The position numbers and the translations under genes are program-made. Under the pieces are notes generated by a model. It saw only the letters and a program-made list of their open reading frames with translations. It did no database searches and was not told the origin of the DNA. This document shows, piece after piece, positions 20,144 to 22,213 of a stretch of 64,000 nt of DNA; position 1 is the first letter of the stretch, and each line of letters starts with the position of its first letter. The stretch is from Meiothermus sp. (GTDB lineage Bacteria > Deinococcota > Deinococci > Deinococcales > Thermaceae): contig NZ_BPIK01000001.1 of NCBI RefSeq assembly GCF_026004075.1, positions 1,466,041 through 1,530,040 of the forward strand. The letters are read 5' to 3'.

Positions 20144-22069
<1,926 letters not shown>

Positions 22070-22084
22070 TTAGACTGAGTTTCC

Positions 22085-22109
22085 AAAAAAAGGGGCGCAA
22101 ACGCGCCCC
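22085..22109 (-). terminator. Intrinsic terminator in metG leader
   Basis: GGGGCGC-GTTT-GCGCCCC followed by seven T residues, read leftwards, 46 bases before the metG GTG. The first three bases of its 5' arm are also the last three of the upstream hairpin's 3' arm, so the two structures compete. It may also stop readthrough from rpiA. Confidence 0.85.
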
Positions 22110-22139
22110 GACGATAGCCTCACCACTGCTATCGTCGGG
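22107..22139 (-). promoter_or_regulatory. Anti-terminator hairpin in metG leader
   Basis: A perfect 12-bp stem: CCCGACGATAGC (22139-22128) with GCTATCGTCGGG (22118-22107), loop of nine bases. The 5' arm contains the stop codon of the leader ORF; the 3' arm shares GGG with the terminator stem. A ribosome that reaches the stop would melt this hairpin and free the terminator. Confidence 0.75.
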
Positions 22140-22176
22140 ACATTCGCATCATTCGGGCAAACCAGCCCCCTACCAT
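22129..22176 (-). CDS. metG leader peptide, Met-rich
   Basis: A 15-codon ORF, MVGGWFARMMRMSRR, ending at TAG. Three of its last seven residues are Met (MMRM at 9-12). TAAAAT is seven bases before the ATG, so it should be translated from a leaderless mRNA. The Met codons lie just before the anti-terminator hairpin and the stop codon lies within it. The peptide is probably a sensor of charged tRNA-Met rather than a functional product. It is too short for coding statistics, so the call rests on architecture. Confidence 0.65.
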   Translation of the reverse strand: MVGGWFARMMRMSRR

Positions 22177-22183
22177 AAGGCAT

Positions 22184-22213
22184 ATTTTATACCAGGTGCG
22201 ACCCATCCGTCAC
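22184..22213 (-). promoter_or_regulatory. metG leader promoter
   Basis: GTGACG (22213-22208), 16-bp spacer, TATAAA/TAAAAT (22191-22184). It lies between the rpiA stop and the leader ORF, so metG need not depend on rpiA transcription. Confidence 0.6.

Follow-up and report, generated by a model that had tools for sequence, protein, structure and literature searches.

The leader of metG in this Meiothermus genome is probably a cis-acting, ribosome-controlled and Met-tRNA-responsive leader-peptide transcription attenuator. This is the best reading of a compact unit on the minus strand between rpiA and metG, in which a putatively leaderless open reading frame (ORF) with methionine codons runs into a hairpin that overlaps an intrinsic terminator. 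Three hallmarks of an attenuator are present: cognate codons in a short ORF, an intrinsic terminator before the structural gene, and a conserved alternative hairpin that overlaps this terminator. An earlier note had proposed classical amino-acid attenuation for this locus, and that reading is supported by every defining feature that sequence can test, save the position of the internal Met codon in Thermus. All coordinates refer to the window, the whole 64,000-nucleotide stretch of DNA that was analysed.

Anatomy of the metG leader

The regulated gene, metG, encodes a methionyl-tRNA synthetase (MetRS) of 631 aa (20144-22039, minus strand) with a GTG start at 22039 and a Shine-Dalgarno sequence, AGGAG, at 22046-22050. 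Its directly upstream neighbour on the same strand is rpiA (22945-22259). The sole promoter-like site detected between the two genes is the -10 box TATAAAAT (22191-22184, minus strand), in which TAAAAT ends 7 bases ahead of the leader ATG at 22176; the accompanying -35-like hexamer, GTGACG (22213-22208, minus strand), is a weak match. The putatively leaderless ORF comprises 15 codons (MVGGWFARMMRMSRR, 22176-22129, minus strand) that read ATG GTA GGG GGC TGG TTT GCC CGA ATG ATG CGA ATG TCC CGA CGA TAG, with the TAG stop at 22131-22129. Met codons 9 (22150-22152) and 10 (22147-22149) stand in tandem, and a third internal Met codon follows at codon 12 (22141-22143). Codon 9, the proposed sensing codon, begins 12 nt 5' of the TCCC with which the anti-terminator arm opens.

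The stop codon lies within the 5' arm of a minus-strand hairpin formed by TCCCGACGATAGC (22140-22128) and GCTATCGTCGGGG (22118-22106). We describe this hairpin, the putative anti-terminator, as a basal helix, TCCCG (22136-22140) with CGGGG (22110-22106), and an upper helix that includes the stop codon, GACGATAGC (22128-22136) with GCTATCGTC (22118-22110). Most Meiothermus sequences carry an A-G or G-G mismatch between the two helices; the window sequence has an A-T pair at this place (22135/22111) and is one of few in the genus with a continuous helix. The intrinsic terminator that follows is the stem-loop GGGGCGC-GTTT-GCGCCCC (22109-22092, minus strand) with a U tract of seven T (22091-22085). 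In the MFE structure, the anti-terminator may be extended by pairing of GCGAAT in the Met-codon region (22142-22147) with GTTTGC of the terminator loop (22102-22097). The promoter, leaderless 15-codon ORF, hairpin and seven-T terminator claimed in the earlier note are all present at their positions, and its placement of the stop codon inside the 5' arm of the first hairpin is borne out. It had counted three bases common to both hairpins; we observed four, GGGG at 22109-22106, which form three Watson-Crick pairs and one G-U pair.

The leader folds with z = -3.4, and none of 200 shuffled sequences was equally stable. A mechanical scan of both strands of the 64-kb window for a TANNNT box, a gap of 5-8 nt, a short ORF and a strong terminator returned one site, the metG leader, and the same scan returned none in reversed or complement-only control sequences. 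Across the related leaders described below, the TANNNT box lies 6-11 bases ahead of the leader start, at a distance of 6 or 7 in 67 of the 79 that were measured. The same arrangement, a -10 box (TANNNT) just before an ORF, is experimentally established in D. radiodurans as driving leaderless mRNA and is common in the phylum (PMC12340547). Leaderless promoters of the Deinococcus-Thermus phylum reportedly do not require a -35 element (PMC12340547). Unlike our reading of the metG leader, the main text of that study does not mention attenuation, leader peptides or terminators.

Distribution across the Deinococcota

We searched 111 genomes of the phylum and took 80 upstream regions, which together with 18 Meiothermus regions gave a set of 98; no genome among the 111 was identifiable as Deinococcus, and Deinococcaceae lie outside the sample. 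The unit precedes metG in 80 of the 98 regions, from Meiothermus, Calidithermus, Thermus, Trueperaceae and other families, with 14 of these 80 recognised by eye after the automatic scan had missed them. It is present in all of the 17 other Meiothermus genomes that were found and at two Calidithermus loci (L038 and L088), where the core CGAATG(ATG)CGA..CCCCGACGATAG....CTATCGGCGGGGCGC...GCGCCCC-T7 is nearly constant and the flanks have diverged. Thermus carries a seven-codon version, TANNNT-7-ATGAAGGGCATGCCCCGGCGCTAG (MKGMPRR and a stop), with the terminator GGGGCGCATGCCCC-T. Versions of 12-27 codons occur in Trueperaceae and other families, for example MTWRMMGRRPGRD followed by a stop, and an AT-rich genome (L189) retains the anatomy with the peptide MNKRMISSNPVIE followed by a stop and the pair CCCTGT/ACAGGG. 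The earlier reader had made conservation of the ORF and of the alternative pairing in relatives a test of the proposal, and the unit passed it across the sampled Deinococcota. What persists in the relatives is the ORF with its putative leaderless start, a Met codon in frame at a fixed position, a hairpin that contains the stop codon, and an overlap between this hairpin and a U-tract terminator; the pairing is species-specific.

The distribution also bears on what the terminator serves. As rpiA lies directly upstream in this genome, the stem-loop could be nothing but the transcription terminator of rpiA, next to an accidental ORF. However, 36 of the 80 units, four of them in Meiothermus, are not behind rpiA, from which we conclude that the unit belongs to metG. 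The ORF, Met codon, stop-codon helix and terminator are moreover conserved jointly and linked to metG, and one Thermus locus (L142) keeps the rpiA-metG order yet has lost the unit. We therefore rejected this reading, to which we give next to no credence: the unit travels with metG, not with rpiA.

Another use of the terminated RNA of about 90 nt would be in trans, as a small RNA or as the mRNA of a functional micropeptide. Termination in the leader would yield a short and stable RNA, and attenuator leader peptides can act in trans, as in the case of peTrpL (PMC7298713). Against such a role, the unit always stands directly upstream of metG, and the length (7 to 23 codons) and sequence of the peptide vary while the cis pairing is kept, which makes a trans-acting product very improbable.

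The remaining 18 of the 98 regions lack the unit. In several of them (L158-L162, L165, L191, L198 and others, many in family f4), the metG start often has its own -10 box a few bases upstream, and so metG itself becomes leaderless when the attenuator is absent. A different deviation is seen in L014 and L037 (Meiothermus isolate SKYB64), whose leader has TGG in place of the TAG stop codon and maintains the hairpin by a G-U pair. The ORF then extends through the terminator and overlaps the metG start codon (ATGA); regulation should differ here, or the sequence contains an error.

Pairing, codon spacing and predicted folding

We compared the stability of each duplex with its own and with swapped partners, placing the segments by rule from the ORF and the terminator and ignoring kinship. 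In Trueperaceae, the stop-codon helix reaches -11.0 kcal/mol with its own partner versus -5.7 kcal/mol with swapped partners (sd 0.60; 0/500 permutations); the corresponding counts are 0/500 in Meiothermus and 2/500 in families f2-f4. The Trueperaceae variants of this helix include TGAGC/GCTCA, TAAGC/GCTTA, TAGGT/ACCTA and TAACA/TGTTA, among others. For the basal helix, own partners are better than swapped ones in Trueperaceae (0/200) and in f2-f4 (1/200), with variants such as CCCTG/CAGGG, CCTTG/CAAGG, CCTGG/CCAGG and CCCTCGAG/CTCGAGGG; the test has no power in Thermus and barely any in Meiothermus because this helix hardly varies there. Column counts for the basal helix gave shuffle results of 9/500 (cells changed on both sides) and 6/500 (covariation score), were unremarkable on two other measures, and one slid control (+3) had a comparable covariation score.

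The possible extension between the Met-codon region and the terminator loop occurs as GATGATGC/GCATCATT, TGATGCA/TGCGTCA and GCGAAT/GTTTGC, and in Thermus as GGGCATGC/GCATGCCC. It is species-specific in Trueperaceae (1/500) and not significant in Meiothermus (49/500) or f2-f4 (137/500); in Thermus it comprises 8 bp in nearly all sequences and is invariant. RNAalifold on a mixed Trueperaceae alignment returned the terminator only, an outcome to be expected from two exclusive structures and a misregistered middle hairpin. The conserved Met codons, covarying stems and U tract for which a check in relatives had been asked are accordingly found, with the qualification that pairing variation is too low in Thermus.

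An internal in-frame ATG is present in all 80 leader ORFs, versus 12.0 expected at a background Met frequency of 1.4%, a count that overstates independence since the 80 sequences are related and are not 80 independent events. The Met-containing leaders span five families, and their peptides otherwise share almost nothing. All Meiothermus and Calidithermus leaders retain the in-frame Met at the position of codon 9; codon 10 is present in most relatives, although not in all, and codon 12 is not conserved. Outside Thermus, the first ATG (or the first of a tandem) usually begins 10-14 nt ahead of the CCC at the start of the anti-terminator arm, and this holds for peptides of 13, 15 or 23 codons; the automatic arm call failed for some sequences, whose printed Met-arm distances are not meaningful. 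The usual footprint of a ribosome that holds this codon in its A site extends about 12 nt past the A of the ATG. With the spacing of 10-14 nt, it follows that the arm would stay free while a ribosome stands at the first Met codon and would be covered by a ribosome at the stop codon. By its geometry, a leader outside Thermus thus usually has its Met codon placed so that a ribosome there would leave the anti-terminator intact, and its stop codon so that a ribosome there would block it. In Thermus leaders (MKGMPxx and a stop), the internal Met is too near the arm or inside it for classical stalling, and it is the start codon that lies about 12 nt from the arm. The proposed stretch of sensing codons, 9 to 12, can be kept in part: codon 9 fits, as does codon 10 in part, but a ribosome at codon 12 would cover the arm, and this codon is absent in several relatives. 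Since codon 12 is both too near the arm and not conserved, we narrow the sensing position to codon 9, perhaps together with codon 10.

The codon ahead of the first Met also shows a preference. CGA stands immediately before it in 41 of the 80 leaders, in distant families (GCGAATG; 22150-22155 in the window), and makes up about a tenth of the Arg codons in six genes of the window. CGA might be favoured as a slow codon, as a pause signal or for pairing with the terminator loop. This frequency, together with that of R-M and R-R in the peptides, would fit a ribosome that is stalled by the nascent peptide or by rare arginine codons rather than by Met codons, or a leader that senses arginine. In Thermus leaders, however, Arg never stands before Met and is often missing altogether (MKGMPHS, MKGMPLG). 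Terminal Arg codons lie within the paired arm. Met is the only residue common to every peptide, and the regulated gene encodes MetRS. We consider an arginine or nascent-peptide signal unlikely and retain methionine as the sensed amino acid.

Folding calculations yielded the anti-terminator as the predicted structure before the 3' arm of the terminator exists. When a stalled ribosome occupies the first Met codon, equilibrium folding still yields the terminator (median P 0.74-0.96), because only four bases are shared; with a masked ribosome that has completed the leader, the terminator is likewise favoured. As a control, E. coli trpL (sequence confirmed in an E. coli collection) gave 0.96-0.98 termination in every state. 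The equilibrium calculation is equally blind for this proven attenuator, and folding with a stalled ribosome therefore neither supports nor refutes a kinetic switch. The hairpins had been described as mutually exclusive, which is apt kinetically; in equilibrium terms, the upper hairpin is compatible with the terminator, and the same holds for trpL.

For the naked leader RNA, the median P(terminator) is 0.00 in Thermus, Trueperaceae and f2-f4, and 0.76 in Meiothermus. In Thermus, an initiating ribosome already frees the terminator (P 0.00 to 0.73). Pairing of the terminator arm is only in modest excess over shuffled leaders in the naked and initiating states, and no excess was seen in the stalled state. 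On these models, an untranslated leader RNA outside Meiothermus should be anti-terminated, the opposite of trp, and failed initiation should also switch metG on in most of these species.

These results bring forward a second reading, in which the leader senses initiation more than elongation: with no ribosome the terminator would be locked and metG on, loading with fMet-tRNA would turn it off, and the Met codons would matter in part as RNA that pairs with the terminator loop. The low P(terminator) of naked leaders in Thermus, Trueperaceae and f2-f4 is in its favour, as is the Thermus start codon, which takes the place of the internal Met at about 12 nt from the arm and from which an initiating ribosome frees the terminator. 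The loop pairing in nearly all Thermus and in Trueperaceae points the same way, and without a 5' UTR, ribosome loading would hinge directly on the start codon. In contrast, Meiothermus leaders vary when naked, shuffling of GC-rich leaders still leaves much of the arm paired, and the fixed-distance internal Met of all non-Thermus lineages is left unexplained. We regard predominant sensing of initiation as possible but doubtful, and favour attenuation by a ribosome that waits at the internal Met codon.

Proposed mechanism and relation to known attenuators

From the observed anatomy, conservation, covariation, spacing and association with metG, we infer a course of events: where transcription begins, that a ribosome translates the ORF, that transcripts can end at the terminator, and that the outcome depends on methionine or on the activity of MetRS. 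RNA polymerase would start at or beside the leader ATG, and a ribosome would load on the 5'-terminal start codon by leaderless initiation and follow the polymerase. When Met-tRNA is charged, the ribosome would arrive at the stop codon in the 5' strand of the anti-terminator and open the hairpin; with the GGGGCGC arm free, the terminator would form and transcription would end after about 90 nt. When charged Met-tRNA is short, the ribosome would wait with Met codon 9 in its A site, leaving the arm 12 nt downstream single, or would alternatively never initiate, as fMet-tRNA is made by the same enzyme. The anti-terminator would then form before the 3' arm of the terminator is made and sequester GGGG, allowing metG to be transcribed.

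MetRS is also the source of fMet-tRNA, so that a shortage would be felt at the start codon too. Thermus has its internal Met inside the arm and its start codon at sensing distance, and initiation may be the main signal there. A more tentative extension, which we put forward with low confidence, is a phylum-wide attenuator that reads its own Met start codon. Failed loading of fMet-tRNA and stalling at internal Met would both switch metG on, the Met codons would double as the strand that pairs with the terminator loop, and the seven-codon leader of Thermus would work by initiation alone. This extension builds on the leader being leaderless and its naked RNA being anti-terminated.

The metG leader shares with attenuators of the E. 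coli trpL type a short ORF with cognate codons, an alternative anti-terminator, a U-tract terminator and a decisive role for ribosome position. In the trp system, the untranslated leader terminates. Unlike the trpL type, the metG leader has a presumed leaderless start in place of a Shine-Dalgarno sequence, its Met codons control MetRS, and it is built of two main hairpins with a 4-base overlap in Meiothermus and no protecting 1:2 hairpin, whose absence accounts for the tendency of the naked RNA to anti-termination. In Firmicutes, metG/metS have T-box leaders, to which uncharged tRNA binds directly and which contain no ORF. Like the proposed attenuator, they respond to the charging of tRNA and regulate aminoacyl-tRNA synthetase genes through a choice between terminator and anti-terminator; the metG leader here differs in carrying an ORF. 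The T-box covariance model gave no match at the gathering score or at E <= 10, and with no Rfam match above gathering score, assignment to a T-box, a riboswitch or another Rfam family was rejected.

Leaderless attenuators with cysteine codons are known in mycobacteria (Canestrari et al. 2020, as cited in PMC9031893), and candidates have been described (PMC4633059). As is predicted for the metG leader, a short leaderless ORF carries regulatory codons and precedes a gene for that amino acid; they differ in having runs of cysteine codons and in the genes concerned. In the open-access literature, we found no description of a Met-codon or metG attenuator for Deinococcota, in line with the earlier note, whose author knew of no Met-codon attenuator described for metG in the phylum.

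A scan of the same genome around four Pfam families (PheS/LysS-like, class IIb, class I synthetases and TrpE) found no other synthetase leader of the metG kind. It exposed a leader directly before asd (L206:1359-1270, minus strand, near C1:1337 kb; relatives L218-L239), in which the peptide MVWYTTTTS and its stop, with four Thr codons, are followed by a hairpin and a perfect terminator. Every Meiothermus and Calidithermus-type genome examined retains the GGTTTGGTATACCAC core and the Thr codons, the latter within a changed peptide in Calidithermus; the leader was not found in the Thermus loci examined. It is a probable threonine attenuator, and this counterpart suggests a wider class of such elements in Thermaceae.

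Deinococcota are an early-branching phylum. If our reading of the metG leader is true, this phylum controls an essential tRNA synthetase via the translation of a leaderless peptide, a route undescribed there in the literature searched. Methionine is special in that initiation and elongation draw on the same enzyme, and the metG leader therefore offers a way to ask by experiment whether the charging of initiator tRNA can be sensed by a leaderless mRNA.
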